Shown here in pieces: positions 8,357 to 27,761 of a DNA stretch of 64,000 nucleotides (the stretch's first letter is position 1; the number at the start of each line of letters is the position of its first letter). This DNA comes from Stieleria neptunia. Its GTDB lineage: Bacteria > Planctomycetota > Planctomycetia > Pirellulales > Pirellulaceae. A model generated the notes under the pieces. The model ran no database searches and had not been told where the DNA came from. It saw nothing but the letters and a program-made list of their open reading frames with translations. The stretch is taken from the NCBI RefSeq assembly GCF_007754155.1, contig NZ_CP037423.1:7498938-7562937 (forward strand). The letters are read 5' to 3'. A program made the translations under genes and the position numbers.

Positions 8357-9040
8357 GTTGGTGTCTAGGCTTCAGCCGATCCTCGTTCAGCTGTGGGGGC
8401 GCCGAAGGCTTCGTTGAAGAGCGCCTGAAGGCTGCACACCAACGGTTCGGACGCCATGCCTGTGACTGCCGGGGAGCCTGTCGGTGATTCGCAGAGGGCT
8501 TTGGCCGAACAGACAAGCTGTCGGATGACGGTTTACCGAGCGTCTCGTTCCCGGCTTACCTCGCTTGGGCTCGGACGCGGTCACTTTCGCCCTTCTTGAT
8601 AACGAACTCGGCATCCTGCCTCGCACTGTTTTTATCGGGCTCCGCCCTCGGCGTCGGTGCTGCTCGCTCGCGCTCGGCGCTACCCTCATCCTTCGGTCGC
8701 TGTCACCACCTCCGCGGGCCGCCGGCTCCGCTCGGTCGATCCCTCCCTTACTCCGGTCGCCGAACGATGGCCCGCTACATCACTCCACCACCATCATCAC
8801 TCTACCACTCCTTGTCTCCCCCTCTCCTTGTCTCCCTCTCTGCCTTCCCGCTTCCCTGCCATCGTTCTCCGACTGACATCCTGTCCCCGACGGGTTTCAG
8901 TCGACGGGCATCGTGCCCGCCGTGCCTTCGGCGTTCTTTCTTGTCCGAAGGTGCGCGATCGATCTTATGGCAAGGCCTAGCGCCCTCCCATTGCGGCGGA
9001 AGTCAACTCGGTCCTGTGATCACGTCAATCGTCCGCCGCT
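8357..9040. repeat. Array repeat R, copy 1
   Basis: This is one of four long copies and one fragment of a GC-rich non-coding repeat; every long copy follows a putative immunity gene on the minus strand. It starts with an imperfect palindrome built on GTTGGTGTCTAGGCTTCAGCC. It continues through GGAGCCTGTCGGTGATTCGC and ends with complementary GCGGCGGA and TCCGCCGC arms (about 8993-9039). ORFs inside it differ between copies and look like GC-rich shadows. The terminal hairpin could end transcription of the immunity gene (inference). Confidence 0.85.
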
Positions 9041-9117
9041 TGATCAGTCATTAGCCGCTGACATTGTTTTGCCCAGTCTCACTTTTCGGTACCTGACAGC
9101 TGATACCCTGAAAAGTC

Positions 9118-9507
9118 CTAAATTGCCAGTGATGAAATAAAGCCCACTGCAAACCAAACAAACGCAAATCCACCGTGAACAAAAATCGAAACTTGACCTA
9201 AGTACGTAAACCGAAGAAGGAAGCCAAGTAGACAACATCCACCAACGACAAAGACCAGAAACGGAAAACTCACACCTGCATGCGGTACGAATGTGATGTC
9301 AATTGGCACACCTAACGGACCACAGAGCATTCGCAGGCAGTTCCGCACGAAGAGTTTGAGTCCAATGTCAAGGCGATTAAGGTACAACGCGGCGAACAGC
9401 GATGCGACAATTGCATAAACGGATAGTACGGAACTTGTTCGCAACCATGAAGTGCGACGAAGTAGAATGTTCTGAAGGTCGCTTGGCTTGTACGGGTTCG
9501 TTGTCAC
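9118..9507 (-). CDS. Small membrane protein, candidate immunity protein for Rhs tip 1
   Basis: The GTG at 9507 starts 7 nt after the stop of the Rhs tip gene and gives 129 residues. The N-terminus TTNPYKPSDLQ matches the NPY-type motif seen on many planctomycete membrane proteins. Three hydrophobic helices lie near residues 25-43, 81-97 and 108-127. No known immunity family is recognised. Its position after a toxin tip and before repeat R matches the three other cassettes, and its N-terminus resembles that of the candidate immunity protein at 25771-26352. Function is inferred from context only. Confidence 0.55.
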   Translation of the reverse strand: MTTNPYKPSDLQNILLRRTSWLRTSSVLSVYAIVASLFAALYLNRLDIGLKLFVRNCLRMLCGPLGVPIDITFVPHAGVSFPFLVFVVGGCCLLGFLLRFTYLGQVSIFVHGGFAFVWFAVGFISSLAI

Positions 9508-9514
9508 GGTTGAG

Positions 9515-10657
9515 TCAGTTCCGAGGGGCGATTGTCGGGCCTGGACCAAAATTTGGGTTTGCCAGCAATTGAGAAAACAAGCTTGCGTTGAGACATCCGC
9601 ATCCCGCCTTCCGCAGCTTCTCGAGTTGGTTTGCATAGCCTGCGTCATGAACGACGAAACCCCCGTAGGATTCCGAGTTTGCTCCGTTGGGGCTGACTCC
9701 CGACAACCAACATGCTGCATCAACGACATGCGAAGCGCTGAATGTCGGATTCCCGACTGCTGCACGAAAAGACCCACCTGGTTGCTCGTAGATCTTCAGT
9801 TCCCAGCCACTGGGTAGCCTGATCGTCCATGCACGCGAACCAGATATCGTTACTGATGGCGTAGCATTGATACCGGACCCCAGGATTTGAAGAATCTGGT
9901 GTATTGTTAATCCCGCTTTGTCCTCATCCACGCGAAACGGGTCAGGCTGTAGATCAAGCCCTAGCTCAAGCAACGCTAGCCTGACAGCTTCTGCCACGGC
10001 ATAAGGAGCGAGCTCGTTATTGCACTCCTGAAAAGAATTGTCTGCGAACGTCTTCAGAAGAGTCTTAGAGGAATCGGATAGCGATGACTTGTCGATGCAT
10101 CGCTTTTTAGCACATAGTAATTCACTGCACAGTTGGACTAGGCCAGACGGATCAAGTGAATCAAGCGGACTTGATTGAACCAATTCGAAGAGATTCCAGG
10201 TGCTACCTGAATACCCAATCGGATCACGACTCAAGAACCGCCCACTTACAGAATCATACATCCGCGCCCGATAGTGGTAGAGGTCAAGGACGTCGTCCCA
10301 CTCGCGGCCCGTGTAGGTATAGCGGTTACCTTCCGCCGTTGATGTACGCGCGGTTCCACTCCCATCGAAGATCGACAACCCGCCATACGCATCATACGCG
10401 TAACGTTCCTTGATCGTCCCACTCGAATCCGTCAGCGCGGTAACACTGTACTGTTGGGTGCCGTGATAGCGAAACGCCAACTTGATTGATGATGCGTCAC
10501 TTTCAGTACGTGACTTGCCGCGTATGCAAGATGATGGGCTGACCGTTTTGCAGCTACGGATTTGTTTTGAATCGGCGCACGACTTAACGCCTCCCGCGCG
10601 GTGGCGCGCGAGACGGCGTCGAAGGGTTTGACGGCGGGATGATCGATGGACGAGCAT
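9515..10657 (-). CDS. Orphan Rhs C-terminal tip 1 (candidate toxin)
   Basis: The start at 10657 is chosen because the same Met-Leu start and Arg-rich leader recur at 15767 and 22080; it gives 380 residues. After the leader comes the Rhs core (about 10211-10471) with RYHGTQQYSV, KERYAYDAYG, NRYTYTGRE, LYHYRARMYD and SRDPIGY. After LDPSGL comes a unique tip of about 200 residues, cysteine-containing, that I do not recognise. The large beta-cage part of a normal Rhs protein is missing. It lies 59 nt after recombinase 1 and 7 nt before its candidate immunity gene. It could be a silent donor or a short expressed protein. Confidence 0.65.
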   Translation of the reverse strand: MLVHRSSRRQTLRRRLARHRAGGVKSCADSKQIRSCKTVSPSSCIRGKSRTESDASSIKLAFRYHGTQQYSVTALTDSSGTIKERYAYDAYGGLSIFDGSGTARTSTAEGNRYTYTGREWDDVLDLYHYRARMYDSVSGRFLSRDPIGYSGSTWNLFELVQSSPLDSLDPSGLVQLCSELLCAKKRCIDKSSLSDSSKTLLKTFADNSFQECNNELAPYAVAEAVRLALLELGLDLQPDPFRVDEDKAGLTIHQILQILGSGINATPSVTISGSRAWTIRLPSGWELKIYEQPGGSFRAAVGNPTFSASHVVDAACWLSGVSPNGANSESYGGFVVHDAGYANQLEKLRKAGCGCLNASLFSQLLANPNFGPGPTIAPRN

Positions 10658-10716
10658 CCCGTCATTGTAGTGGATCGATCGACTACTCGGTGGGTTTGTC
10701 GTCGGGCTTGTTGGGA

Positions 10717-11664
10717 TCAGATTGCGGCGGTCGGTCGTTGGCTTCCCGGGTGGGTTTTGTCGTGGACTTCTCGCAGGCGTTTGATCGACACGTGCGTGTA
10801 GATTTGGGTGGTGTTGAGCTGCTCGTGACCGAGTAACGTTTGGATCGAGCGCAGGTCCGCGCCGCCTTCGAGCATCAACGTCGCTGTGGTGTGGCGGAGC
10901 ATGTGGCAACTGCCGGGTTTCGTGATGCCCGCCGCAGTCAAGTAGTTTCTGACGAGTTGGCTGAGCGTGACCGGATGGAACGCGTTGCCGCGGGACGTCA
11001 GGAAGATCACGTCGGTGTCTTCGTCAAGTAAAGCAGGTCGACCATCGCGAAGATATTTCATCAGCCATCCATGGGATCGCTTACCGGTCGGCACGACTCG
11101 ATCCTTGCGGCCTTTGCCTTGACGGATCATCGCAAGACCGGACTCGTGGTTGATGTCGTCGAGCTTCAGCGCGATCAACTCGGCCCGGCGCATTCCGGTG
11201 GCATAAAAGAGTTCCAACAACGCGCGGTCGCGAAGACCGGTTGGCGTGGTGAGATCGACTGAGCTGAGTAGCGTTTCGATTTCGTCGATCGTCAGGTGCG
11301 ATGATGGGAGACGCTGTTCTTCCTTGGGGAGTTCGATGCCGGTTGATGGATCGCTGTCGATCCAACCTTGTTCGCTCAACCATTCGAGCCAGCGACCAAC
11401 CGTTGAGAGATAGCTGGCCTGGGTGCAGAACTTGAGCGGCTTGCCGGTGCGTTCGTTGCGGTAGTGATAGAGCCAACGACGATACGCGGTAAGTAGCTCC
11501 GTTGTGATTTCGGTGACGGACTCGATGCCGCGTTCGCTTGACCAGGTGATGAACTTGTTCAAGACGTAGTCGCGGCGCGAGATGGTCGTGGCCGACCAAT
11601 TGTTCATCTTGAGGTGATTGAAGTAACGAGTCAGCAGGACGGTGGGAGTGGGAAGGTTTGACAT
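10717..11664 (-). CDS. Tyrosine recombinase 1 (XerC/D-like)
   Basis: This 315-residue recombinase has an N-terminal SAM-like core-binding domain (residues 8-100) and a catalytic domain. The active residues are visible: R159 in ATGMRRAEL, a Lys in GKGRKDR, H254 and R257 in CHMLRHTT, H280 in LLGHEQL, and Y289 in TTQIYTHV. It is nearly identical to the copies at 15793-16773 and 22106-23062. A one-base shift near the 3' end changes its last residues (GSQRPTAAI instead of GAKDRPPQS). It probably recombines short sites in the array; the sites are not identified. Confidence 0.93.
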   Translation of the reverse strand: MSNLPTPTVLLTRYFNHLKMNNWSATTISRRDYVLNKFITWSSERGIESVTEITTELLTAYRRWLYHYRNERTGKPLKFCTQASYLSTVGRWLEWLSEQGWIDSDPSTGIELPKEEQRLPSSHLTIDEIETLLSSVDLTTPTGLRDRALLELFYATGMRRAELIALKLDDINHESGLAMIRQGKGRKDRVVPTGKRSHGWLMKYLRDGRPALLDEDTDVIFLTSRGNAFHPVTLSQLVRNYLTAAGITKPGSCHMLRHTTATLMLEGGADLRSIQTLLGHEQLNTTQIYTHVSIKRLREVHDKTHPGSQRPTAAI

Positions 11665-11929
11665 GGATTTGCATCCTGGGGTTGTGATCGGCGCGTACCG
11701 GTAGCCGGGCGTGCTCGATCAGGGGAAAGCGGCCGAGTGAACGTCGCTCGGCCGAAGAAGACGGCATCACCGATCACGGCGATGCAGCTATGGCAAGGCT
11801 TTCAATGAGGGGGCCTTGCGAGGTTTTGGCATCGGTTTTGATGCCAGAGCGGTTAAGCCGCCAACGTACAACGACTTACTGATTGTGTGAGGTGGGGTGA
11901 AGCTGCAGAAGAGCAGGGTCAGAGCCGGG

Positions 11930-11994
11930 GTTGAGCTTGCTTGCTCAGGGGGTTGAGGTCTGGAGCAAGGGGGTCGAGGTTTTGGTTGTAGTTG
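11930..11994 (-). pseudogene. Relic of the 3' end of the primase-like/AAA ATPase gene
   Basis: These 65 nt match 17041-17105, the end of the intact ATPase gene, with few changes. The frame still reads TTKTSTPLLQTSTP and then stop, against TTKTSTPLVETSTP in the intact gene. The rest of the gene is gone, replaced by the integrase-fragment segment. A second relic is at 23329-23393. Confidence 0.75.
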
Positions 11995-12173
11995 TCGTTT
12001 CTTGAGCGTTTGAATTGGGATGGCTTGCGACGTTTTGGAGTTCGGTTGGGTTGGATCGTTGTTAGCTGCTTGACTGGGAACGACTTGCGTCAATCGAAAG
12101 CCGGCCGGACGGCACCGGAACCCTACCGGATGCTACCCGGCAGGTTGACTGCAGGCCCCGGAAGGTTGGCGTC

Positions 12174-12569
12174 CTAGGCCGGAAGCTTTTGGTCATAGCA
12201 GCTGTTGCTTGGCAGATTTGCCTTGCCGCGCTTATCGATCGTGGGAACCGTTGCTGCGATGTCACTGGACAAATTGGTGTCTCGCGCAAGCCATTCAAAC
12301 AAACGACGAAGTTTTGTGACGCGTTCACGAACGATGCGGATCCCAATCGCTGCACCATTGATTAAGTCAACTTCGTTTTGCAGGTGACCAACATAGTCTG
12401 CGGCGGTTGTGTCGCTGATTTGGTCGCTGGCTGTGATCGATTGCGTTTGACACCAGGTGACGAAGTAGTCCAGTTGCTGCTTGGTGATGTTGACGATGCG
12501 TCGTTTGTGCCCCGATCGTTGCAGGTATTCGACGTAGCCTTGGACCAGAGCTGGTAATGTCGAAGCCAT
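12174..12569 (-). CDS. Integrase core-binding domain fragment, copy 1
   Basis: The ATG at 12569 (MASTLPALVQGYVEYLQ) gives 131 residues resembling only the N-terminal SAM-like DNA-binding domain of tyrosine recombinases (HLQNEVDLINGAAIG, VTKLRRLFEWLARDTN). It ends at YDQKLPA with no catalytic domain after it. The copy at 23573-23968 ends at the same point with a near-identical sequence. It may be a truncated relic, or a small DNA-binding partner kept by selection. Nothing decides between these. Confidence 0.6.
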   Translation of the reverse strand: MASTLPALVQGYVEYLQRSGHKRRIVNITKQQLDYFVTWCQTQSITASDQISDTTAADYVGHLQNEVDLINGAAIGIRIVRERVTKLRRLFEWLARDTNLSSDIAATVPTIDKRGKANLPSNSCYDQKLPA

Positions 12570-12759
12570 CGGGGGTGACCTTGTGTTGGTGCATTGCGAT
12601 CGCACGGACGCTTTGGAGACGATCCATGCCGGCGGGGTCGCGCGGGGTTGGCGATCCGGCCGGCTGCGCTGCGTGTCTCTCGGTTGTCACTGATGGCGGC
12701 GGCCTTGATCGGTGGCGATGGTGATCAAGTTCAATGAGCCCGAGAGCGTGGACCACCTC

Positions 12760-12990
12760 GATGACGCGACAGCTCCGCCTGGTTGTCAACAGAGCAATTC
12801 GCCAACCGCCGGGAAAGTAGAAAACCGCTTCGTCATCAATCGTTAAAGTTTACGCACGCTCTGTTAACCAACGCGTGAGTGTTTTTTGTCTCTCGCCTTC
12901 TCTCGGCCTGATCGCCGGAGGGTCACGGGTGACGGCGTCAGTCCGGCTCGGCGAAAGCCAAAAAACGTAGGGAAGAGTGGGAGGGCGGTT
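12760..12990. repeat. Array segment S, copy 1
   Basis: This conserved segment precedes repeat R in + coordinates. It has the common stretches GTAGAAAACCGCTTCGTCATC and TGAGTGTTTTTTGTCTCTCG, then GGAGGGTCACGGGTGACGG. Other copies are at 19325-19557 and 24160-24390. On the minus strand it lies upstream of the recombinase units and may hold their promoter (inference). Confidence 0.7.
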
Positions 12991-12997
12991 CGGTGGC

Positions 12998-13672
12998 GTT
13001 GGTGTCTAGGCTTTAGCCGATCTTTGTCCGGTCGTGCGAGCGCCGAAGGCGTCGTGGAGAGGCGCCTGAAGGCTGGACACCAACGGTTTGGATCCATAGC
13101 CATGAATGCCGGGGAGCCTGTCGGAGATTCGCAGAGGGCTTTGGCCGAACAGACAAGCTGTCGGATGAGGGTTTACCGAGCGTCTCGTTCCCGGCTTACC
13201 TCGCTTGGGCTCGGACGCGGTCACTCTCGCCCTTCTTGATAAGGAGCTCGGCATCCTGCCTCGCACTGTTCTGATCGGGCTCCGCCCTCGGCGTCGGTGC
13301 CGCTCGCGCTCGGCGCTACCCTCATCCTTCGGTCGCTGTCAGCACCTCCGTCAACCGTCGGCTCCGCTCGGTCGATCCCTCCCTCACTCCGGTCGCCGAA
13401 CGATGGCCCGCTCGGTCTTCCCAACTTCCAACTCTTCTCTTTCAACTTGGAACCTGGAACTTGAAACATGGAACCGCTCCCCCGCTTCCCTGCCATCGTT
13501 CTCCGACTGACATCCTGTCACCGACGGGTTTCAGTCGACGGGCATCCTACCCGCCGTGCCTTCGGCGTTCTCTGCGCGTCAGGGTGCGCGGTCGGTCGTG
13601 TGACAAAACCAAGCGGCCATCCATTGCGGCGGAAGTCAACTCGGTCCTGTGATCAATTCAATCGTCCGCCGC
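12998..13672. repeat. Array repeat R, copy 2
   Basis: It matches copy 1 over most of its length, including the opening palindrome and the terminal complementary GCGGCGGA and TCCGCCGC arms. An inner part (about 13411-13490) differs: it carries AACTTGGAACCTGGAACTTG-type repeats where copies 1 and 5 have a CTCCTTGTCTCCC-rich tract. Confidence 0.85.
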
Positions 13673-13875
13673 GAGCACAAAGGCCGTAATTGCTAGGTTG
13701 CCTATGCTTCCAGTTTGGTACGGTTCCTGACCCTTTTTCTCTTATACTTTTCTATTCAATGCTGCGCAGATGGGCCAACCAGTCGGTAAGTCCAATGACG
13801 GACAGCGGGGAGAGCTGAATCCAATTCTTCGGCGATCCGCAGTTCGAGCGGTGGTCCGACACCACCGTCCCCAGA
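13673..13875. other. Non-coding gap between repeat R and candidate immunity gene 2
   Basis: No gene is visible. This gap is AT-richer than its surroundings and is not shared with the other cassettes, consistent with belonging to the variable cassette rather than to the repeat frame. Confidence 0.35.
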
Positions 13876-14535
13876 TCATTCAACTAAACTGTTACTTTCC
13901 GCCCCCTTTGATTTCGAGGGGCCTGAATCGTCTGCTTTCGTAGATTCGTTGTCATCAGGGTCAAACCCTAGCGGTAAACTTGATTCAAAATGCCGGGAGG
14001 AAAGAAACCAAGCGAGCCCAGTGAATTTTTGTCGGTGTCTCCGCGCGACATCATGCAGAATAGGTTTGATTTTCTCATTCGGTCCAAAGGCTTCAATTAG
14101 GCGGCTACGTTCAATCGGAATGATATCCTCTATTTTGTTACCGATACGGAAGACTGCGATCGTCACGGAAGTGACTTTGTGAATGCCCGTATAGTCGATT
14201 TCCGAATTTGCCCCTGGCACGAGTAGCAGCTTTCCTTCGGCGAACCTTGTCTGTCTTACGCTGTGTAGCAAAGTGGAGTAGTAGACCTTTGCCGTTGCAA
14301 ATGGAAAAGACAGCGTGTTGGTCAATGACTCCTGTGCGGATGTGTCAGAGTTATAGATCCATCTCACACTATTCGAGGGCGAGAAATTAATTGCAAAGGT
14401 GGTGCAACGCGATTCCAATCCAGATTGAACTACTTCAATCATGGATACTTGTATGTCGTCGGTTTCAGAAGCCGCACCGCAGTTTCCGATCATTGCGACT
14501 ACTGCAACGACCTGGAGAGTTCGCGAAACAAACAT
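13876..14535 (-). CDS. Exported protein, candidate immunity protein for Rhs tip 2
   Basis: The ATG at 14535 follows the Rhs tip stop by 2 nt and gives 219 residues. The N-terminus MFVSRTLQVVAVVAMIGNC is a signal peptide and may be a lipoprotein signal. The rest is soluble, with a low-complexity Ser/Lys/Asp C-terminus. No family is recognised. The tight coupling to a toxin-like tip suggests immunity, and export suggests that the toxin would act in the periplasm (inference). Confidence 0.5.
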   Translation of the reverse strand: MFVSRTLQVVAVVAMIGNCGAASETDDIQVSMIEVVQSGLESRCTTFAINFSPSNSVRWIYNSDTSAQESLTNTLSFPFATAKVYYSTLLHSVRQTRFAEGKLLLVPGANSEIDYTGIHKVTSVTIAVFRIGNKIEDIIPIERSRLIEAFGPNEKIKPILHDVARRHRQKFTGLAWFLSSRHFESSLPLGFDPDDNESTKADDSGPSKSKGAESNSLVE

Positions 14536-14537
14536 AT

Positions 14538-15767
14538 CTACCAGTTTAGTGGGTTAAAGGGATGATCGTCATAGCCTCGCCCTGGACCTTGACCAGGCCT
14601 AAACGGAATGTACCCGGGCTGATGCGGGACGTTCTTGTGAATGCACGTGTTGGGAACAGCGAATCCGTCGTCAATCGACATCGAGCAATCATTACCACCA
14701 CCAGCAACCTCGATAGTAAGATACCAATGGACGTGCCAAAATCGCCTCCCGTTCCGACGTTTGGGCTCGGCGATATCAGCCTCTAATACTGAATGCCTCA
14801 TTGCACCAGTGAAACAACTGGATTCGCCAATTGCTTTGTTGAATGCATCCATAAAGATTTCCGCCCAAGTGAAGCAGTACTGACCGGCCACGCAATCCGG
14901 ATGCGTGTGAGGCCAATCCGTATCGTCTTCCGGACACTGGAAATAGTTGTTTTGCCACCCGAGCATAAAGGACTGAACGATTCTTTGCGCATCATTCTTG
15001 CATTGCGTATTCGAACAGTTTCCAGAACAGCATTGGTCACATATTGATTCCAGCATTGCTAGCCCAGACCGGATGTTCTGTAGCCCAACCAGATAGTCGG
15101 GGCCCTCAAGGTCGTTCGGCGGAAGGTTTGGACAGCGTATCCAAGACGGACCACGTGCCGAAACGTAGTAGCAGTCAAGTCCTCGCACGCCTGGTGGGTC
15201 GCCCTGCTCTCGCCGATAGATTGGACGTCCATCCGGTCTGACCCCGATAACTTCCGCCAGCCCGACTGGGTCCAGTCCGGTTAGTGCCCTAACGCCCCTG
15301 TAGATCGCTGGCCCATCCCAGTATCCGATCGGGTCTCTGGAGCAGAACCGGCCGGCGATCGAGTCGTACATGCGGGCGCGGTAGTGATACAAGTCGAGGC
15401 CGTCATCGTACTCACGACCGGTGTACGTGTATCGGTTGCCTTCCGCCGTTGATGTACGCGCGGTTCCGCTTCCATCGAAGATCGACAAATTGCCGTACGC
15501 ATCATACGCGTAGCGTTCCTTGATCGTTCCGCTCGAATCCGTCAGCGCGTTGACACTGTACTGTTGGGTGCCGTGATAGCGAACCGCCAACTTGATAGTT
15601 GGCGCATCGTTTTCAGTCAGTGATTTGTCGGGCAAGCAGGTTGGTTGACGAAGCGTTTTGCAGCTACGGATTTGTTTTGAGTTTGCGCACGACTTAACGC
15701 CTCCCGCGCGGCGGCGCGCGAGACGGCGTTGAAGGGTTTGGCGGCGGAATGATCGATGGCAGAGCAT
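14538..15767 (-). CDS. Orphan Rhs C-terminal tip 2 with papain/transglutaminase-like motif
   Basis: The start at 15767 follows recombinase 2 by 25 nt; 409 residues. The leader is the shared Arg-rich segment (RRQTLQRRLARRRAGG). The Rhs core is at about 15321-15581, ending SRDPIGYWDG. The tip after LDPVGL is homologous to tip 3. It has a cysteine-rich stretch (CDQCCSGNCSNTQC), then GQYCFTWAEIF, WHVHWYLTIEV and SMSIDDGF. The Cys, His and Asp order (about C298, H345 or H347, D366) with an H-x-W-like context resembles papain or transglutaminase folds. Catalysis is inferred, not shown. Confidence 0.65.
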   Translation of the reverse strand: MLCHRSFRRQTLQRRLARRRAGGVKSCANSKQIRSCKTLRQPTCLPDKSLTENDAPTIKLAVRYHGTQQYSVNALTDSSGTIKERYAYDAYGNLSIFDGSGTARTSTAEGNRYTYTGREYDDGLDLYHYRARMYDSIAGRFCSRDPIGYWDGPAIYRGVRALTGLDPVGLAEVIGVRPDGRPIYRREQGDPPGVRGLDCYYVSARGPSWIRCPNLPPNDLEGPDYLVGLQNIRSGLAMLESICDQCCSGNCSNTQCKNDAQRIVQSFMLGWQNNYFQCPEDDTDWPHTHPDCVAGQYCFTWAEIFMDAFNKAIGESSCFTGAMRHSVLEADIAEPKRRNGRRFWHVHWYLTIEVAGGGNDCSMSIDDGFAVPNTCIHKNVPHQPGYIPFRPGQGPGRGYDDHPFNPLNW

Positions 15768-15792
15768 CCCGATATTGTAGTGGATCGATCGG

Positions 15793-16773
15793 CTACTCGG
15801 TGGGTTTGTCTTCGGGCTTGTTGGGATCAGATTGCGGTGGGCGGTCCTTGGCGCCCGGATGCGTTTTGTCGTGGACTTCACGGAGGCGTTTGATCGACAC
15901 GTGCGTGTAGATCTGCGTCGTGTTGAGCTGCTCGTGACCGAGTAGCGTTTGGATCGAGCGCAGGTCCGCGCCGCCTTCGAGCATCAACGTCGCTGTGGTG
16001 TGGCGGAGCATGTGACAACTGCCAGGCTTGGTGATGCCCGCTGCAGTCAAGTAGCTTCTGACGAGTTGGCTGAGTGTGACAGGATGGAAGGCGTTGCCGC
16101 GGGACGTCAGGAAGATCACGTCGGTGTCTTCGTCGAGCAGTGCGGGGCGACCATCGTGAAGGTATTTCATCAGCCATCCAAGGGCTCGCTTGCCGGTCGG
16201 CACGACTCGATCCTTGCGGCCTTTGCCTTGACGGATCATCGCAAGCCCGGACTCGTGGTTGATGTCGTCGAGCTTCAACGCGATCAACTCGGCGCGTCGC
16301 ATCCCGGTGGCATAAAAGAGTTCCAATATCGCGCGGTCCCGAAGACCGGTTGCCGTTGTGAGATCGACGGAACTGAGTAGCGTTTCAATTTCATCGATCG
16401 TCAGGTGCGAAGATGGAAGACGCCGTTCTTCCTTGGGGAGTTCGATACCGGTTGACGGATCGCTGTCGATCCAACCTTGTTCGGTCAGCCATGTGAGCCA
16501 GTGACCAACCGTTGAGAGGTAGCTGGCCTGGGTGCAGAACTTGAGAGGCTTGCCGGTGCGTTCGTTGCGGTAGTGATAGAGCCAACGGCGATAGGCGGCA
16601 AGTGACTCGGCGGTGATCTCGGTGACGGACTCGATACCTCGCTCACTTGACCTCGTGATGAACTTGTTCAAGACGTAGTCGCGGCGCGAGATGGTCGTTG
16701 CCGACCAGTTGTTCATCTTGAGGTGGCTGAAGTAGCGAGACAGTAAGACTGTGGGAGCGGGAACGATTGACAT
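15793..16773 (-). CDS. Tyrosine recombinase 2 (XerC/D-like)
   Basis: This 326-residue copy carries all the catalytic residues (ATGMRRAEL, CHMLRHTT, LLGHEQL, QIYTHV). Compared with recombinases 1 and 3 it has an altered N-terminus (MSIVPAPTV) and the longest tail (GAKDRPPQSDPNKPEDKPTE). It lies downstream of the primase-like/AAA ATPase gene and 25 nt before Rhs tip 2, so the three may be co-transcribed. Confidence 0.93.
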   Translation of the reverse strand: MSIVPAPTVLLSRYFSHLKMNNWSATTISRRDYVLNKFITRSSERGIESVTEITAESLAAYRRWLYHYRNERTGKPLKFCTQASYLSTVGHWLTWLTEQGWIDSDPSTGIELPKEERRLPSSHLTIDEIETLLSSVDLTTATGLRDRAILELFYATGMRRAELIALKLDDINHESGLAMIRQGKGRKDRVVPTGKRALGWLMKYLHDGRPALLDEDTDVIFLTSRGNAFHPVTLSQLVRSYLTAAGITKPGSCHMLRHTTATLMLEGGADLRSIQTLLGHEQLNTTQIYTHVSIKRLREVHDKTHPGAKDRPPQSDPNKPEDKPTE

Positions 16774-19122: not shown

Positions 19123-19324
19123 TGCTTGGTCTCCGTTGGTTGCGAGCAGACCGGTGGCGTGGTCGTTGCTTGGTGGTTTGTGAAGATCGGCGGGGAGAGG
19201 TGTCGGCGGTTGCCGAGCGGGTCCGCGGAAGCTGCGCACTTGTCGGCTGTCGTTGGCGGTCGAGAGCCTTGAAGGTGCAGGGGCGAAACGTGGATCAACG
19301 CCTCACGGATCGGCCGGCCCTCCA

Positions 19325-19557: not shown

Positions 19558-19563
19558 GGTGCC

Positions 19564-20243
19564 GTTGGTGTCTAGGCTTTAGCCGATCCTTGTCCGGTCG
19601 TGCGAGCGCCGAAGGCGTCGTGGAGAGGCGCCTGAAGGCTGGACACCAACGGTTTGGATCCATAGCCGTGGTTGCCGGGGGAGCCTGTCGGAGATTCGCA
19701 GAGGGCTTTGGCCGAACAGACAAGCTGTCGGTTGACGGTTTACCGAACGTCTCGTTCCCGGCTTACCTCGCCGAGGCTCCGACGCGGTCACTCTCGCCCC
19801 TCTTGATATGGAGCTCGGCCTCCTGCCTCGCACTGTTCTTATCGGGCTCCGCCCTCGGCGTCGGTGCTGCTCGCTCGCGCTCGGCGCTGCCCTCATCCTT
19901 CGGTCGCTGTCAGCACCTCCGTCAACCGTCGGCTCCGCTCGGTCGATCCCTCCCTCGCTCCGGTCGGCGAACGATGGCCCGCTCACCTCGTTCAACTTCA
20001 AAGTTCATCTCTTTCAACTTGGAGCATGGAATTTGAAACCTGAAACTGTGCTCCCGCTTCCTGCCATCGTTCTCCGACTGACATCGTGTCACCGACGGGT
20101 TTCAGTCGACGGGCATCCTACCCGCCGTGCCTTCGGCGTTCTTTGCGCGTCCTGGTGCGCAGTCGGTCGATCGGTAGGGCAATGCGGCCATTAATTGCGG
20201 CGGACGTTGGCTCGGTCCTGCGTTCACGTCAATCGTCCGCCGT
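19564..20243. repeat. Array repeat R, copy 3
   Basis: It is colinear with copies 1 and 2 from GTTGGTGTCTAGGCTTTAGC to the terminal GCGGCGGA and TCCGCCG arms. The variable inner tract (about 19990-20058) has the AACTTGGAGCATGGAATTTG type, like copy 2. Confidence 0.85.
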
Positions 20244-20336
20244 GAGCTCAGAGACAGTGACCATCAAATTATATATCCTGCCAATCTATCCTGACCAATT
20301 TTTTTGGACTCTTTTTCTTCGTCCAAAGTGCTCGGC

Positions 20337-20960
20337 CTAGTTCTTTGATCTCAGCGTCTTCCCCTTTCTCTCACGACGTTCGGGTGCATAACCAGTCGCT
20401 TGCGCCCCTGTAGGAGAGTCTGACAATAGAAAGTGATTCATGAATCCAATTCCATTGCTCTTTGCCTGATGAATCGAGTGCAGCAATCCGTGAATCTTCT
20501 TACTTGACTCGAGGCCATCCCCCAAGTTGGAGAGCCTGAGAGGCAGCGTCCACGCCATATTGTCTCCGTCGATTGCCGAAAAAACGAAGACGATGTCGTC
20601 ACTATGCAACCTTCCTCCCAAATCGCTGCGCGCTTCTAGGTCGGTCCTCAGACTCTCCAAGTAATGCCTGAATTCACCCTCTCCAAACTGTATTGCTCCG
20701 CTTAACTCCTGACGTAATCGCCCATCGCCAAGAATTGCCGACCACCGAGTTTCGTTACCTCGTTGCGATATCAATAGCGTTTCCGTGCGAATCCCATCGC
20801 CAAATTTTGCAGACACACATACCACGAGTTTTTGCGATTTGGCGACTGCCTGAGTCTCTGCAGGTGCATTCGGCGGTGCCGCCAGGATGTAAATGATTAG
20901 GCACGCGAAGACTTTAGTAAGTGCTTGACCATACAGGGAACGGTAAGACTCGGTCCTCAT
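20337..20960 (-). CDS. Exported protein, candidate immunity protein for Rhs tip 3
   Basis: The ATG at 20960 (MRTESYRSLYGQALTKV) gives 207 residues and overlaps the end of the tip gene by 47 nt. A hydrophobic stretch (FACLIIYILAAPPNAPAE) looks like a signal peptide with a cleavage site. The remainder is soluble with no recognised family. Position and export match candidate immunity 2, and their tips are homologous. The two proteins share only vague similarity (ILHDVARRHRQ against LLHSIHQAK). Confidence 0.5.
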   Translation of the reverse strand: MRTESYRSLYGQALTKVFACLIIYILAAPPNAPAETQAVAKSQKLVVCVSAKFGDGIRTETLLISQRGNETRWSAILGDGRLRQELSGAIQFGEGEFRHYLESLRTDLEARSDLGGRLHSDDIVFVFSAIDGDNMAWTLPLRLSNLGDGLESSKKIHGLLHSIHQAKSNGIGFMNHFLLSDSPTGAQATGYAPERRERKGKTLRSKN

Positions 20961-22080
20961 CGCAAGTACTCCAGTAAAGTTCTTTGTCGGGGTCAAATGG
21001 ATGCGCAATTGGCTGCCCGCCCGAATATGTCATTTCGATCAGCCCAAATCCGTTATCAAGCGATACTTGGCAATTGGAAGCACTAGTCGATCCTACTGTG
21101 ACAGTGAGCCAAACATGAATGTAGACTTTCGGCGGCTTGCCCTGTGAACTTGCACGCAACTCCTTTGTGAAACACTTTGAACCAACTCGATCAAAGGCGG
21201 ATTCGAATATCTGTGCCCAGTCGTAGCAGTACCAACCACCAACTCTGATAGGATTTCTGTCCGGTACACTGCTGAAGTTTGCTTGCCAAGCCGACAGCCA
21301 TGCCTTTACAAGCAAAATAGAGTCCGTGTTGCATTCGGCTTCGGTACAATCGCACTGACAGTTCTTGCATGCGGCTTGCAACTTCGAAATCCCGTTGTAG
21401 ATCCCACGAAGCCCGTCCAAGTAGTCAATCCTGTTCGGATGGGAAGGAGGCGTGATCGGACACCTAACATCCACTTCACCAGTTGCAGTCCGGATGTAGC
21501 ACGTGTTTTCGGGAGTTCGTTTCCAAATGAAGTTTCCTTGCCCGTCAATTCCAACCAAATCTTGCGACAAAAGGCCTGTAGGGTCGACGCGTAAGATTGC
21601 GAAATAATTCGCGTAAGCATTTTGGCCATCAACATATCCAAGAAGATCCTTCGCGCAAAACCGTCCACACACCGGATCATACATTCGAGCCCGGAAGTGG
21701 TAGAGTTCCAGCTCTTCATCCCACTCGCGTCCGGTGTACGCGTAGCGGTTGCCTTCGGCCGTCGTCGTACGTGCAGTTCCGCTGCCATCAAAGATCGACA
21801 GGTTGCCATACGCGTCGTAGGCGTAGCGTTCCTTGATCGTCCCGCTCGAATCGGTCAGCGCGGTGATGCTGTACTGTTGGGTGCCGTGATAGCGAAACGC
21901 CAACTTGATTGATGACTTGTCGCTTTCAGTGCGTGATTTGTCGGGCGAGCAGGTTGGTTGACGAAGCGTTTTGCAGCTACGGATTTGTTTTGAATCGGCG
22001 CACGACTTGACGCCTCCCGCGCGGCGGCGCGCGAGACGGCGTTGAAGGGTTCGACGACGGGATGTTGGCTTGCAGAGCAT
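20914..22080 (-). CDS. Orphan Rhs C-terminal tip 3 with papain/transglutaminase-like motif
   Basis: This 388-residue ORF starts 25 nt after recombinase 3 with the shared leader (MLCKPTSRRRTLQRRLARRR). The Rhs core is at about 21634-21894, more diverged at its end (AKDLLGYVDG instead of SRDPIGY). The tip is homologous to tip 2: CKNCQCDCTEAEC, then GGWYCYDWAQIF (C285), YIHVWLTVTV (H322) and CQVSLDNGF (D342). The shared Cys-His-Asp pattern suggests a thiol hydrolase or transglutaminase-like toxin (inference). Confidence 0.65.
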   Translation of the reverse strand: MLCKPTSRRRTLQRRLARRRAGGVKSCADSKQIRSCKTLRQPTCSPDKSRTESDKSSIKLAFRYHGTQQYSITALTDSSGTIKERYAYDAYGNLSIFDGSGTARTTTAEGNRYAYTGREWDEELELYHFRARMYDPVCGRFCAKDLLGYVDGQNAYANYFAILRVDPTGLLSQDLVGIDGQGNFIWKRTPENTCYIRTATGEVDVRCPITPPSHPNRIDYLDGLRGIYNGISKLQAACKNCQCDCTEAECNTDSILLVKAWLSAWQANFSSVPDRNPIRVGGWYCYDWAQIFESAFDRVGSKCFTKELRASSQGKPPKVYIHVWLTVTVGSTSASNCQVSLDNGFGLIEMTYSGGQPIAHPFDPDKELYWSTCDEDRVLPFPVWSSTY

Positions 22081-22105
22081 CCCGCCATTGTAACTGATGG
22101 ACAGG

Positions 22106-23062
22106 CTATTCGGTGTCGCTTTGCGGTGGGCGGTCCTTGGCTCCCGGATGCGTTTTGTCGTGGACTTCGCGCAGGCGTTTGATCGACACGTGCGTGTAGA
22201 TTTGGGTGGTGTTGAGCTGCTCGTGACCGAGTAACGTTTGGATCGAGCGCAGGTCCGAGCCGCCTTCGAGCATCAACGTCGCTGTGGTGTGGCGGAGCAT
22301 GTGACAACTGCCGGGCTTGGTGATACCCGCCGCGCTCAAGTAGCTCCTGACGAGTTGGCTGAGTGTGACCGGATGAAACGCGTTGCCGCGGGACGTTAGG
22401 AAGATCACTTGCGTATCGTCGTCGAGCAGTGCGGGGCGACCATCGTGAAGGTATTTCATCAGCCATCCGAGTGCTCGTTTGCCGGTCGGTACCACGCGAT
22501 CCTTGCGTCCCTTGCCTTGGCGGATCATCGCAAGACCGGACTCGTGGTTGATGTCGTCGAGCTTCAGTGCGATCAACTCGGCGCGTCGCATGCCGGTGGC
22601 ATAAAAGAGTTCCAATATCGCGCGGTCGCGAAGACCGGTTGGCGTGGTGAGATCGACTGAACTGAGTAGCGTTTCGATTTCGTCGATCGTCAGGTGCGAT
22701 GATGGGAGACGCTGTTCTTCTTTGGGCAGTTCGATGCCGGTTGATGGATCGCTGTTGATCCAACCCTGTTCGGTCAGCCATGCGAGCCAGTGTGCGACCG
22801 TTGACAAGTAACTTGCTTGAGTACAGAACCTGAGCGACTTGCCGGTGCGTTCGTTGCGGTAGTGATAAAGCCAACGACGATAGGCTGCGAGTGACTCGGG
22901 CGTGATCTCGGTGACGGACTCGATGCCGCGTTCGCTTGACCAGGTGATGAACTTGTTCAAGACGTAGTCGCGGCGCGAGATGGTCGTGGCCGACCAGTTG
23001 TTCATCTTGAGGTGGTTGAAGTAACGAGACAGCAGGACGGTGGGAGTAGGAAGGTTTGACAT
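22106..23062 (-). CDS. Tyrosine recombinase 3 (XerC/D-like)
   Basis: This 318-residue copy is nearly identical to recombinase 1 at the N-terminus (MSNLPTPTVLLSRYFNHL) and to recombinase 2 at the tail (GAKDRPPQSDTE). All the catalytic residues are present. The mixed similarity suggests gene conversion among the three copies. Confidence 0.93.
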   Translation of the reverse strand: MSNLPTPTVLLSRYFNHLKMNNWSATTISRRDYVLNKFITWSSERGIESVTEITPESLAAYRRWLYHYRNERTGKSLRFCTQASYLSTVAHWLAWLTEQGWINSDPSTGIELPKEEQRLPSSHLTIDEIETLLSSVDLTTPTGLRDRAILELFYATGMRRAELIALKLDDINHESGLAMIRQGKGRKDRVVPTGKRALGWLMKYLHDGRPALLDDDTQVIFLTSRGNAFHPVTLSQLVRSYLSAAGITKPGSCHMLRHTTATLMLEGGSDLRSIQTLLGHEQLNTTQIYTHVSIKRLREVHDKTHPGAKDRPPQSDTE

Positions 23063-24159: not shown

Positions 24160-24390
24160 ATGACGCGACAGCTCCGCCTGGTTGTCAACAGAGCAACTCG
24201 CCAACCGCGGCGAAAGTAGAAAACCGCTTCGTCATCAATCGTTAAAGTCAACGCACTTGGTGTTAACGATCGCACGTGAGTGTTTTTTGACTCTCGCCTT
24301 CTCTCGGCCTGATCGCCGGAGGGTCACGGGTGACGGCGTCAGTCCGGCTCGGCGAGAGCCAAAAAACATTGGGAAGAGTGGGCGGTCGGC
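24160..24390. repeat. Array segment S, copy 3
   Basis: Same order of motifs as the other two copies. On the minus strand a frame through it reads LTLTIDDEAVFYFRRGW, matching LTLTIDGEAVFYFRGGW in copy 2, so it may hold a short coding sequence. Confidence 0.65.
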
Positions 24391-24431
24391 TTTTGACGTG
24401 AAGTCCCGGACGCCCGGGGAGTGGTGTGCCC

Positions 24432-24552
24432 ATGAATGCCGGGGAGCCTGTCGGAGATTCGCAGAGGGCTTTGGCCGAACAGACAAGCTGTCGGTTGACG
24501 GTTTACCGAATGGCTCGTTCCCGGCTTACCTCGCTTAGGCTCGGACGCGGTC
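24432..24552. repeat. Array repeat R, truncated copy
   Basis: Only the stretch from ATGAATGCCGGGGAGCCTG to CTCGGACGCGGTC survives. It lacks both the opening palindrome and the terminal arms. It ends beside the DUF3276-like gene, suggesting that this gene was inserted into or captured by a repeat copy. Confidence 0.75.
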
Positions 24553-24576
24553 TCTTGCGCGATCCAATAGGCGAAT

Positions 24577-25014
24577 TTACTCATTGGACGCGAGTTTCTT
24601 CAGTCGCGATCGAATAGCGTTTGGCTGACGCTGAAAGATCACCGCCAGTTCGTCGATCGTCTTACCATCACGATGTTTTTCGCTGAGGTGAAGATCTTCC
24701 TCCTTGGTCCAAGCTGTATAGGCATTCGGGTAACGCTCGCGTATCTGATTTACTCGATCTTCGTAACTCGATTGTTCGACTGCGTCGTTGAGCGCACGCA
24801 CGTCATGGTAGATTGCGCCAGCTGCCCGAACGATCGTATCGAGGAATTTTGGAAGAGACGACTCGTAAACGACGATCGACTCCACTTTAGAGTTCATTGA
24901 CGGGTTCCTCTGAATGCAAAGATATTTCTTTTCACCGACGCCCTCGCGAACTTCAACCAAGTACTCGTTCGCCCCGATGGTTATTGAATCAGAGAAGTAT
25001 CTCGCCGGTTTCAT
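24577..25014 (-). CDS. DUF3276/PUR-like protein with C-terminal helix-turn-helix
   Basis: 145 residues. The N-terminal half (FSDSITIGANEYLVEVREG, KYLCIQRN, IVVYESSLPKFLDTI) resembles the small PUR-alpha-like nucleic-acid-binding fold of DUF3276. The C-terminal part (AWTKEEDLHLSEKHRDGK, IDELAVIFQRQPNAIRSRL) looks like a helix-turn-helix that is common in uncharacterised DNA-associated proteins. It lies between two R copies and matches nothing in the other cassettes. It may be a passenger gene or a regulator of the array (inference). Confidence 0.55.
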   Translation of the reverse strand: MKPARYFSDSITIGANEYLVEVREGVGEKKYLCIQRNPSMNSKVESIVVYESSLPKFLDTIVRAAGAIYHDVRALNDAVEQSSYEDRVNQIRERYPNAYTAWTKEEDLHLSEKHRDGKTIDELAVIFQRQPNAIRSRLKKLASNE

Positions 25015-25156
25015 TGCTGAATTTGGTCACGCGTGAACTGAATGTCTGAATGTTCCATAGGAGACGATGCATCAGTTTACACCGCATCAGGTCTCCATTG
25101 TCTCGCCGTGATGATGAGACTCGGTTCGAGAGCGGCCGAGTGGCTTGGCGGATCAG

Positions 25157-25729
25157 TGCCGAGGAGCCTGTCGGAGATTCGCAGAGGGCTTTGGCCGAAA
25201 AGACAAGCTGTCGGATGACGGTTTACCGAGCGTCTCGTTCCCGGCTTACCTCGCTTGGGCTCGGACGCGGTCACTTTCGCCCTTCTTGATAAGGAGTTCG
25301 GCATCCTGCCTCGCACTGTTCTTATCGGGCTCCGCCCTCGGCGTCGGTGCTGCTCGCTCGCGCTCGGCGCTACCCTCATCCTTCGGTCGCTGTCACCACC
25401 TCCGTCAACCGTCGGCTCCGCTCGGTCGATCCCTCCCTCACTCCGGTCGCCGAACGATGGCCCGCTACCTCACTCCACGACCATCATCACTCTACCACTC
25501 CTTGTCTCCCCCACTCCTTGTCTCCCTCTCTGCCTTCCCGCTTCCTGCCATCGTTCTCCGACTGACATCCTGTCACCGACGGGTTTCAGTCGACGGGCAT
25601 CCTACCCGCCGTGCCTTCGGCCTTCTTACCGCGAGAAGGTGCGCGGTCGGTCTTGTGGCAAGACCAAGCGGCCTCGCATTGCGGCGGAAGTCGACTTGGT
25701 CCTGTGATCACATCAATCGTCCGCCGCTG
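25157..25729. repeat. Array repeat R, copy 5 (lacks the opening palindrome)
   Basis: It runs from GAGGAGCCTGTCGGAGATTC to the terminal GCGGCGGA and TCCGCCGC arms. The inner tract is the CTCCTTGTCTCCC type, as in copy 1. It follows candidate immunity gene 4 on the minus strand. Confidence 0.85.
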
Positions 25730-25770
25730 ATTCGCGGCATTAAACCCCCGTCCCCTTTGTTTTCGCCCGC

Positions 25771-26352
25771 TCAAATCACGAGCCAGAGCACCAAAAGGAT
25801 CCAAGCTAACGATGGAACGGCAACCTGTCTTGGTGTGGACTGCACTCCCGCCAACACGTAACAAATGAATAATGTGGTAAAGACTGGAGCAACTGTCGCT
25901 CCAAATGCAATGGCAGTTATCTCGCTAGATTGCTTAAATGAAAAGCCGGACCAAAGCAACACAAATTGCAGAGCACCGCTAACACAGGCGATGAGCGCCC
26001 AGCCGCCAAAAACCCCCGATCGCGTTTTCGCTTTAAGGCACGCGATGCCGCCGAACAAGATGGTCAGAACCATGGACCCAACGACATTCACGAGAGTTGG
26101 TATCCCGATCCGAATTGCAAATCCGAATCCGCCTACAAAATCAGGCAAACTCAAGACACGCCGAATGAAAACGATCAATTCCCAGGAAGCGATTTGCAAT
26201 GGCGCGAATGCAATTACACCACAGAAAAGCCCCCGCCAAAGAGTCCGCCGATCAAGCTCCTCTAGTCTTTCCCCAGCCTGCAATGCTGGCGGCTTATAAG
26301 GAGAAGGCGACAATTCTTCGGGAGAGGTCTCGTCTTTGTTCGTAGTTGTCAA
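25771..26352 (-). CDS. Membrane protein, candidate immunity protein for Rhs tip 4
   Basis: A TTG at 26352 overlaps the stop of the Rhs tip gene (TTGA), giving 193 residues. The N-terminus reads TTTNKDETSPEEL and then SPYKPPALQ, an NPY-type motif like that of candidate immunity 1. Four or five hydrophobic helices follow (for example GGWALIACVSGALQFVLLW and FTTLFICYVLAG). No family is recognised. Overlapping translation with the tip gene is typical of toxin-immunity pairs. Confidence 0.55.
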   Translation of the reverse strand: MTTTNKDETSPEELSPSPYKPPALQAGERLEELDRRTLWRGLFCGVIAFAPLQIASWELIVFIRRVLSLPDFVGGFGFAIRIGIPTLVNVVGSMVLTILFGGIACLKAKTRSGVFGGWALIACVSGALQFVLLWSGFSFKQSSEITAIAFGATVAPVFTTLFICYVLAGVQSTPRQVAVPSLAWILLVLWLVI

Positions 26353-27689
26353 TGGTTTCTCGCACGGTCTTTGCCGGGACAAGGGCGAGAGAATAATTCC
26401 GAGAAACTTGTTTCCCAACTTCCAACAATGTTGAAAGGAGTTGGATTGGCGCCGGATGGTTCCGGCCAAAACCACGGCGGATCCATTCCCGTAGAATCAG
26501 GGTCAGAATCAAAAACGTCATATGGGCGTTCAAACACATCCCTAAGTCTGTACTTAAGTGAACAAGTCAAAGTATATTGCCAATCATCCGACAGAAACAA
26601 ACCAGTAAACCAATTGCAGCATGGACCACAGGAATCAAGTGAGATGTGGCAATCTGTGGTTACAGAGAAACTATTAGCGAACTTTGGGCCACCAAGAGCA
26701 AACAATGGATCAAGCCCCGCATTCCAAAGGGCTTCGGGCCAAGAATCACCACTGAACTCATAGGTAAAGTCTTGCGTGTGCGAAAAGGTGAGGGAATTAT
26801 TCGCACCTGGGTACTTGTTGCACCAGAGCTTGCTAGATTTTACGTTTGCGTACGTCCGAAGCCAGTTCTCGTAATCGCTCACTTGTTCTGAAATTTGCTC
26901 AGCATTTTTGAAGTTGTCTAGCAAACCGTGGTCACCCAAGTCAAAGTCTTCGCCTTCTCCATAGAAATAGTGCTCAAACATGCTGCCTGGACCAAAATAC
27001 ATGTACCACGGATCTTCGAAGATGATGGGATATGGTGGGCCGATGTACGGCTGTAAACCCGTTGGATCAACTTGCGTCGGCACGTAGTACGCAACATACG
27101 TATTAAATCCGCCACCTCGATACCCAATCGGGTCTCTGGAGCAGAACCGCCCCGCGATCGGATCGTACATGCGGGCGCGATAGTGATAGAGGTCAAGGAC
27201 GTCGTCGTGCTCTCGCCCCGTGTAAGTGTAGCGGTTGCCTTCCGCTGTCGCCGTACGCGCTGTTCCACTTCCATCGAACACCGACAGCCCGCCATACGCA
27301 TCATAGGCGTAGCGCTCCTTGATCGCCCCGCTCGAATCGGTCAGCGCGGTGACGCTGTACTGTTGGGTGCGATGGTAGTAACGCAGGCCGCCGGTGCCGT
27401 CACGTACGACGGGTTCGTCGATGTAGCTGGCGTAGACGTCGTTGTAGGTGGGGTTGGTTGCCGCGGTTCCTGAGGTGTAGTCCGCGACGGTCTGCTGGCC
27501 ATTTTGGACATAGATGCTGACCGTCGTGCCATTGTCGCGCGCGACTCGGCGACCGAGTGCGTCCCATTCATAAAAGACGTCGTCGGTGCTGTCGTTATCT
27601 ACATCAGCCGAAACCAAACGGTTGTCGAAGTCCCAGGTGAGCGTCAGCGGATCGCTGCCGGGACGGAGAATCACCGGGATCACCGTCAT
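26349..27689 (-). CDS. Orphan Rhs C-terminal tip 4 (longest Rhs remnant)
   Basis: 446 residues from ATG 27689; the frame is open back to a stop at 27759-27761 and Rhs-like residues (THDVKGN) precede the ATG. It holds more Rhs repeat than the other cassettes (WDFDNRLVSADVDN, EWDALGRRVARDNG). The common core follows to SRDPIGYRGG, then the tip after VDPTGL. The tip is Trp/Tyr/Phe-rich, with CGPCCNWFTGLF and no recognised family. No recombinase precedes it. The main Rhs body is missing, so it is an orphan or a 5'-truncated gene. Confidence 0.65.
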   Translation of the reverse strand: MTVIPVILRPGSDPLTLTWDFDNRLVSADVDNDSTDDVFYEWDALGRRVARDNGTTVSIYVQNGQQTVADYTSGTAATNPTYNDVYASYIDEPVVRDGTGGLRYYHRTQQYSVTALTDSSGAIKERYAYDAYGGLSVFDGSGTARTATAEGNRYTYTGREHDDVLDLYHYRARMYDPIAGRFCSRDPIGYRGGGFNTYVAYYVPTQVDPTGLQPYIGPPYPIIFEDPWYMYFGPGSMFEHYFYGEGEDFDLGDHGLLDNFKNAEQISEQVSDYENWLRTYANVKSSKLWCNKYPGANNSLTFSHTQDFTYEFSGDSWPEALWNAGLDPLFALGGPKFANSFSVTTDCHISLDSCGPCCNWFTGLFLSDDWQYTLTCSLKYRLRDVFERPYDVFDSDPDSTGMDPPWFWPEPSGANPTPFNIVGSWETSFSELFSRPCPGKDRARNH

Positions 27690-27761
27690 GTTGCCTTTGA
27701 CATCGTGCGTGACGCTCTCACTGGTCTTGTTTTTGTGGTTCTTCGCGGATTTTAGTGGCTA

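Follow-up and report, generated by a model that had tools for sequence, protein, structure and literature searches.

Arrays of Rhs toxin tips in Stieleria neptunia are probably built by integrative elements of about 5.5 kb that take the core of an Rhs gene as their attachment site. As judged from sequence comparison, a tyrosine recombinase of the element would join a circular copy to a single point in the core, here called X, and the toxin end of the gene would be reloaded. The array in question lies in a stretch of 64,000 nucleotides (GCF_007754155.1, NZ_CP037423.1, positions 7,498,938 to 7,562,937), which comes from a single 10.98-Mb contig and is referred to as the window. On its minus strand, from 27,760 to 8,345, a truncated lead Rhs gene with tip 4 is followed by orphan units with tips 3, 2 and 1 (Table 1).

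The displacement of Rhs C-terminal ends is known. In displacement arrays a lead gene is followed by co-oriented core-tip fragments, a new tip displaces the old one, and a circular intermediate has been proposed (Jackson 2009, PMC2935791); end displacement has also been described elsewhere (Koskiniemi 2014). The arrays of S. neptunia share the lead and the co-oriented fragments with those of Jackson (PMC2935791), but most of their units have a recombinase and a fixed junction. What is new is the dedicated element, with its recurring recombinase, fixed junction and built-in start.

Each of the four window units has a distinct tip, followed by a candidate immunity open reading frame (ORF) and then repeat R. 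The initial annotation had recognised four minus-strand units of core, tip, candidate immunity gene and R, and two repeat families together with the ORFs bear it out. Family D2 is the last ~260 bp of the Rhs core (4 window copies, the other three 72–80% identical to the reference), and family D1 is repeat R (4 window copies, 79–96% to the reference); for families of ~300 bp, identities of 69–96% are far above chance expectation. From R to the next core the stretch holds a conserved block (D9), short ORFs or a primase-like gene, and an XerC/D-type tyrosine recombinase. The three window recombinases, correctly described as near-identical, share 93–100% over 311–315 amino acids and end 235–259 bp ahead of the orphan cores (counted from the alignment end). 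The tips are 232–261 amino acids long and are presumed toxins, with the neighbouring ORFs as candidate immunity genes. The window lead, the unit nearest to the type VI secretion system (T6SS) genes, is not full length and retains ~114 core codons upstream of X in one frame.

Twelve such recombinases (93–100% identity) and two remnants occur in the S. neptunia genome, in five arrays, A to E. Arrays A, B, C and D lie at 3.21, 4.71, 5.89 and 6.76 Mb, and array E is that of the window; a sixth place, F (10.10 Mb), has core and R and no recombinase. The recombinase matches PF00589 (E 7.5e-42), and its R, K, H-x-x-R, H and Y line up in the alignment with XerD positions which we take to be the catalytic ones. 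In array A, two recombinase modules of 4,227 bp differ by 1 base, pointing to recent turnover or conversion.

All 12 recombinase-linked orphan cores of the genome start at one nucleotide, X, at CACCCAACAG, and 7 further orphans of the same lineage, in three other genomes, switch from element flank to Rhs core at X. The orphan junction usually reads CGCTATCACGG followed by CACCCAACAG, with a variant left part in two units; across X, lead genes read TACTACCATCG followed by CACCCAACAG, coding YYHR-TQQ. The string CACCCAAC is common to 20/20 core-bearing places in the six arrays and CACCCAACAG to 19/20, and in the genome of a congener, G012, leads and recombinase-linked orphans have CGCGGCCAACAG in common instead. 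Two features of an integrative element are present at the sequence level: a recombinase with catalytic residues, and a fixed site common to the element ends and the target. The recombinase-linked orphan cores of the X lineage are all of one length, counted from X, unlike the variable-length fragments of described Rhs arrays. A lead that reads through X and is followed by orphans is seen in arrays A, C and E, and it is intact in A alone.

Over a wider sample, Rhs core upstream of X was absent from all 20 units whose recombinase ends at X and from all four units in which a nuclease family transposase gene (PDDEXK_2, see below) precedes the core, and it was present in 19 of 25 others. The 50th place is a unit of G006, the recombinase lineage of which ends further upstream than X. 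These 50 places are the 55 core hits of the fetched stretches, less 3 duplicates in overlapping loci and 2 hits to something other than this core; matches in G008 and some contigs of G005, G007 and G013, for example, fall outside those stretches, and a length filter removed cores that a contig end interrupts or that run into R (L123, L133, L125). The reading frame across X is identical in leads and orphans, so a crossover at X preserves the Rhs frame. The X-to-X boundary also revises the unit of the initial annotation, in which three of the tips stood behind a recombinase: in the integrated element the tip would lie ahead of its own recombinase.

The far end of the element supplies a start. 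The motif TACAAT-NNCGGG-ATG-CT stands after each of the 12 recombinases, and this 17-base pattern (TACAATNNCGGGATGCT) has 12 occurrences in 10.98 Mb, each behind a recombinase (reversed control, 0). From the ATG of the motif the reading is open for 63 codons into the core and tip in 19/19 X-lineage units. An in-frame leader is present in 21/21 recombinase-linked units once two divergent lineages (leaders of 36 and 97 codons) are included, in 0/4 of the PDDEXK_2 units, and in 2/25 other places, both of them G006 orphans (29 codons). Among 15 distinct leaders the in-frame reading has no stops, and the other two frames have stops in 5 and 15. The ratio of non-synonymous to synonymous polymorphism (pN/pS) is 0.75 in frame, and 1.19 and 0.83 in the other frames, values which do not support the leader as a conserved protein. 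With protein constraint so weak, start, length and frame seem to be the features preserved. TACAAT may be the −10 box of a leaderless message.

A GC-rich hairpin with a conserved sequence lies inside the leader (window 10460–10716, minus strand, and relatives). It follows the recombinase, folds better than shuffled sequences as DNA (z −2.3), and gave nothing at gathering scores in Rfam. It could be an attachment arm, a terminator or a translation control.

Exchange between leads and orphans is seen in six pairs with a common tip (94–100% amino acid identity): A lead and A unit 3; C lead and window tip 3; C lead and a G012 orphan; G012 lead and B unit 2; G002 lead and a G012 orphan; and G012 lead and an orphan of its own genome. 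All five leads in these pairs read through X; one is intact, and the others are truncated or cut by the end of the stretch. The intact one is the array A lead, an Rhs protein of 2,226 amino acids. The initial annotation had proposed looking for a tip common to an array and a full Rhs gene, and here there is one: rightward of X, no base differs between the A lead and A unit 3 over 1,907 bp, and to the left 18/46 positions agree, which is background level. The G012 lead and its own orphan agree at 600/600 positions to the right of X and at 22/46 to the left. Between the C lead and window tip 3 there are 2 mismatches in the first 30 bp and then 0 over 1,770 bp. These pairs support the annotated idea of a recombinase cassette system that exchanges tips with Rhs genes, with the amendment that some of the shuffling resembles homologous recombination at R or the core.

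The same element has also been cut in two ways. From X to X, the element of array C measures 5,483 bp and comprises tip 3, its immunity gene, R, ORF145, short ORFs and the recombinase. Array C 10756–16306 corresponds to two window pieces in swapped order (2,194/2,205 and 3,638/3,650 identical), which overlap by 304 bp within R. The ~5.5-kb element is therefore bounded by X in array C, where tip 3 is the lead tip, and by R in the window, where tip 3 is an orphan tip. Such a circular permutation would be explained by a circle that integrated at X in array C and at R in the window. To account for it by tandem duplication and differential loss, an exchange between loci 1.6 Mb apart would be needed as well.

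Other recombinase lineages end at other points. The recombinases of G003 and G004 (41–44% identity) end before RDPIG or QDPIG, ~75 codons downstream of X. At this point TGCTCCAGAGATCC is common to the five orphans and three leads of G003, and a 56-codon leader is in frame in 6/7 units of the lineage and out of frame in one. The G006 recombinase (66–67%) ends ~95 codons upstream of X. On these alignments each lineage appears to have its own point within one stretch of ~190 codons of the Rhs core. Two units in G003 (C1:2598007 and 4601832) have a recombinase of the second lineage and a tip, with no Rhs core match in the fetched stretches, and may be solitary insertions or remnants.

We propose that a circular copy of the element is joined to X inside an Rhs gene by the tyrosine recombinase it is predicted to encode. 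The Rhs gene would gain a new tip and immunity gene, and the old pair would be shifted downstream. Once integrated, the order from X to X would be core end, tip, immunity gene, R, short ORFs or primase, recombinase and leader, and the displaced core-tip would be kept in frame through the start codon and 63-codon leader at the far end of the element. Since every junction falls on one and the same codon position, the frame would be kept both in the reloaded Rhs gene and in the displaced core-tip. As a second route, homologous recombination at R and within the ~260-bp core would shuffle units between arrays. The direction of these events, like the circle, the action of the recombinase and the promoter, is presumed from the arrangement of the copies. 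Whether this amounts to an element class of its own we would put at about even chances. Such elements would use a toxin gene core as attachment site, integrate in frame, bring a new end with its immunity gene, and supply a promoter, a start codon and a leader of their own to re-arm the displaced end; the host would collect a readable stack of past weapons, and several recombinase lineages would each have chosen a different point.

With a recombinase carried by most units, a junction that is fixed and one element cut in two ways, the question of an integrase in Rhs displacement becomes testable. The in-frame leader could explain the continued expression of displaced toxin-immunity pairs, and this might give cells a reason to retain immunity against relatives still armed with an old tip.

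Several observations weigh against integration at X. X is also reached with no recombinase at hand, in the four PDDEXK_2 units (the first unit of array D among them) and in the first unit of array B; in both arrays the first unit itself begins at X, preceded by a flank other than Rhs core, and in B this flank is not a recombinase either. To the left of X the two sides are non-homologous, and a sharp left edge alone cannot separate site-specific from homologous exchange. The leads of the S. neptunia genome that read through X number four, with one intact. The two mismatches between the C lead and the window copy fall within 30 bp of X, and in the window the point of entry of tip 3 appears to be R rather than X. 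In three cross-species pairs the core is less alike than the tip, with 78/90, 69/90 and 71/90 identities in the bin 30–120 bp from X (in one example 78/90 for the core bin against 344/350 for the tip), which we read as crossovers or divergence inside the core. Finally, the leader protein is under weak constraint.

The elements may instead be selfish. On this view the Rhs core would be a safe attachment site, and the replacement 3′ end would spare the host gene. A change of tip would be incidental, and the toxin-immunity pair would serve mainly as an addiction module that is expressed from the end of the element itself. We regard this as possible but somewhat improbable. It has the same anatomy and mechanism as integration for the reloading of Rhs genes, with another beneficiary, so that the two are compatible and their odds overlap. 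The primase-like gene and the recombinase are element functions, the in-frame leader would allow the displaced toxin and immunity protein to be made, and Salmonella Rhs pairs are reported to act as toxin-antitoxin loci. The stacking of units and the presence of one tip in both a lead and an orphan of one genome suggest more than passive residence.

It is unlikely that turnover proceeds by RecA-type homologous recombination alone, in the core and R, with the recombinases as passengers, captured a single time and multiplied along with the units. The core and R do offer long homologies, the cross-species tip pairs change identity inside the core, the insertion of window tip 3 is bounded by R, and such events have been proposed for enterobacterial Rhs genes (Jackson 2009, PMC2935791; Koskiniemi 2014). 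Left unexplained are the fixed core endpoints with in-frame leaders across recombinase lineages, and the fixed core length of recombinase-linked orphans, where Jackson (PMC2935791) reports fragments of variable length. Lineage-specific points in the core are likewise hard to explain if the recombinases are passengers.

A supply of tips to the adjacent T6SS, the setting in which the initial annotation had placed the array, is very improbable and was rejected as the main explanation, as the adjacent lead is truncated, T6SS genes lie near one array of six (seven window T6SS proteins have no match in the other array stretches), and the intact Rhs protein has RHS/YD-repeat matches only, with no PAAR or VgrG adaptor domain. 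The array does adjoin TssF-TssG-ClpV-like genes here and a ClpV-like gene in G012. This ClpV-like gene (28291–31116) has a match of at least 81% in 11/14 genomes of the genus, and of 42–50% in the other three. In five of these genomes (G001, G006, G009, G010 and G013) the gene is kept at 81–93% with no Rhs core match nearby or, in drafts, on the contig. The intact Rhs starts with a hydrophobic, signal-like stretch (by eye).

The locus is variable. The right flank of the array is common to G012, G002 and G005; both flanks are on one contig in G012 only, and the G002 and G005 assemblies are broken. The interval between the same flanks holds tips 4-3-2-1 in S. neptunia; in G012 it holds a lead and an orphan, as well as the lead tip a second time and tip 3 in a 94% version. 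Next to the right flank stand another tip in G002 and, in G005, a lead fragment joined to R. G005 was considered as an empty site and rejected: its lead runs into R within a few bases upstream of X, at a short ATCG common to both, which looks like a deletion. Fixed arrays with no junction in the core would have spoken against tip exchange; the array at this locus differs between S. neptunia and G012, and the core junction is sharp. On these comparisons the arrays change at one locus, yet the T6SS appears to need none of them, and its neighbourhood is probably incidental.

The arrays resemble integrons in growing beside a fixed site, probably through circles. Integron cassettes are not known to carry an integrase, and the units here carry their own recombinase (12 in 5 arrays), which scores 108.5 bits against the integron integrase model TIGR02249 (cut-off 265); membership was rejected. 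In shufflons (Rci), a tyrosine recombinase alters the C-terminal end of one protein by inverting resident segments, whereas the units here are all co-oriented. A scan for inverted repeat pairs of at least 40 bp (seed 14), with short sites beyond its reach, found 0 in the window.

Displacement of T6SS effectors in Vibrio cholerae is sequential and leaves older immunity genes behind, and has been likened to integrons by its authors (Kirchberger 2017, PMC5361080). There the ancestral effectors are replaced, whereas here tip and candidate immunity gene both stay. Both the 2009 (PMC2935791) and the 2017 paper (PMC5361080) remark that the involvement of an integrase was not known. The Aux3 T6SS module of V. 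cholerae is excised and integrated by site-specific recombination (PMC7721734), but moves as a whole prophage-like module; here the site is inside the toxin gene, which is rebuilt. Recombinase-associated acquired interbacterial defence (rAID) arrays of Bacteroidales have a predicted tyrosine recombinase beside orphan immunity genes only (PMC12247911); in the present arrays toxin tips are retained and the recombinase recurs along the array, which does not fit the rAID definition. In Burkholderia the bcpAIOB toxin locus likewise moves via a DNA circle, a megacircle, but with an IS2-like transposase and as a composite transposon of ~210 kb (PMC6350997). In Ornithobacterium hominis 26 orphan Rhs tips have been reported, and the accessible part of that report draws no link to a recombinase. 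A search of titles and abstract starts of open-licence articles in PMC, with subscription journals and most preprints outside its range, gave no recombinase in Rhs tip cassettes and no Rhs core as an attachment site.

Matches to the recombinase at E ≤ 1e-50 were found in 9 of 98 genomes searched (S. neptunia included), all in the genus, and Rhs core matches at E ≤ 1e-12 in 13/14 genomes of the genus, G009 having a distant match only. A relative with 63% identity precedes an Rhs core in a Planctomycetaceae metagenome-assembled genome (MAG; L098). Viral contigs gave two matches (34–35% identity) and plasmids 191 records, all below 60% identity. In a Verrucomicrobia MAG (L099, 6133–7400) a recombinase of 48% identity is followed by an ORF with a signal-peptide-like start (by eye) that extends past the contig end; this may be the same arrangement in a different phylum.

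The PDDEXK_2 gene mentioned above is a PD-(D/E)XK nuclease family transposase gene (PF12784, scored on the L111 copy, 6799–7686) and stands before the core in four leaderless units. It occurs in arrays B, C and D and in loci L111 and L110. The array B copy comes after a recombinase remnant, and the G007 copy after the recombinase.

Table 1. Features of the Rhs tip array in the window, in reading order on the minus strand.
Feature	Position	Strand	Basis or match
Truncated lead Rhs with tip 4; core continues across X (X codon at 27380)	26349..27689	-	93–95% amino acid identity to intact array A Rhs upstream of X
Candidate immunity ORF, tip 4 (maximal ORF; true start probably near tip stop)	25771..26475	-	no Pfam family
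Repeat R after tip 4	25157..25728	-	repeat comparison
ORF145, element part common to array C (100%)	24577..25014	-	locus comparison
D9, conserved left part of recombinase module	24198..24385	-	repeat comparison
Tyrosine recombinase copy 1 (reading order)	22106..23062	-	ORF and homology
TACAAT-N6-ATG at element end (possible −10 box and start codon)	22078..22092	-	motif scan
63-codon leader, continuing in frame into orphan core and tip 3	21892..22080	-	frame scan
Orphan Rhs core from X (21891) and tip 3; tip 3 = array C lead tip	20914..21891	-	locus comparison
Candidate immunity ORF, tip 3 (maximal ORF)	20337..21008	-	100% copy in array C
Repeat R after tip 3	19561..20258	-	repeat comparison
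Primase-like gene with DnaG N-terminal domain; GKT stretch resembling a P-loop (by eye)	17056..19239	-	PF08275, TIGR01391
Tyrosine recombinase copy 2	15793..16773	-	ORF and homology
63-codon leader, start motif 15765–15779	15579..15767	-	frame scan
Orphan Rhs core from X (15578) and tip 2 (29% identical to tip 3)	14538..15578	-	locus comparison
Candidate immunity ORF, tip 2	13876..14535	-	ORF list
Repeat R after tip 2	12986..13687	-	repeat comparison
Two short ORFs (143, 140 amino acids) at primase position	12174..12789	-	no family found
Tyrosine recombinase copy 3 (query copy)	10717..11664	-	R, K, H-x-x-R, H, Y align with XerD
63-codon leader, start motif 10655–10669	10469..10657	-	frame scan
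Orphan Rhs core from X (10468) and tip 1 (99.6% amino acid copy in array D)	9515..10468	-	locus comparison
Candidate immunity ORF, tip 1 (maximal ORF; overlaps tip)	9118..9777	-	ORF list, comparison
Last repeat R, right boundary of the array	8345..9045	-	repeat comparison

Neither tips 1–4 nor their candidate immunity ORFs matched a Pfam family. Among 144 candidates, a homologue search with tip 3 returned one protein, tip 3 itself; the G012 copy (94%) stems from the genome comparison. The AlphaFold model of tip 3 is poor (predicted local distance difference test, pLDDT, 55). Tips 2 and 3 share invariant cysteines and a YC..WA, H, D pattern which, by eye and with no family match, suggests a papain- or transglutaminase-like enzyme. 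The primase-like gene, which occurs in one window unit and was missing from the initial annotation, matches PF08275 (E 4.8e-6) and TIGR01391 (E 1.2e-7; 31 bits, under the cut-off of 283.6).

Repeat R matched nothing in Rfam at gathering scores and was rejected as a known RNA family. It was also rejected as a genome-wide repeat: in a scan that scored 40 of 171 first-look candidates, all of the matches longer than 200 bp among the 53 listed sit at the six arrays. At the right edge of the window array lies an IS21-like element (5584–8161; IstA 5704–7293, IstB 7223–8068), which is missing in G012, G002 and G005, where the flanks join directly.

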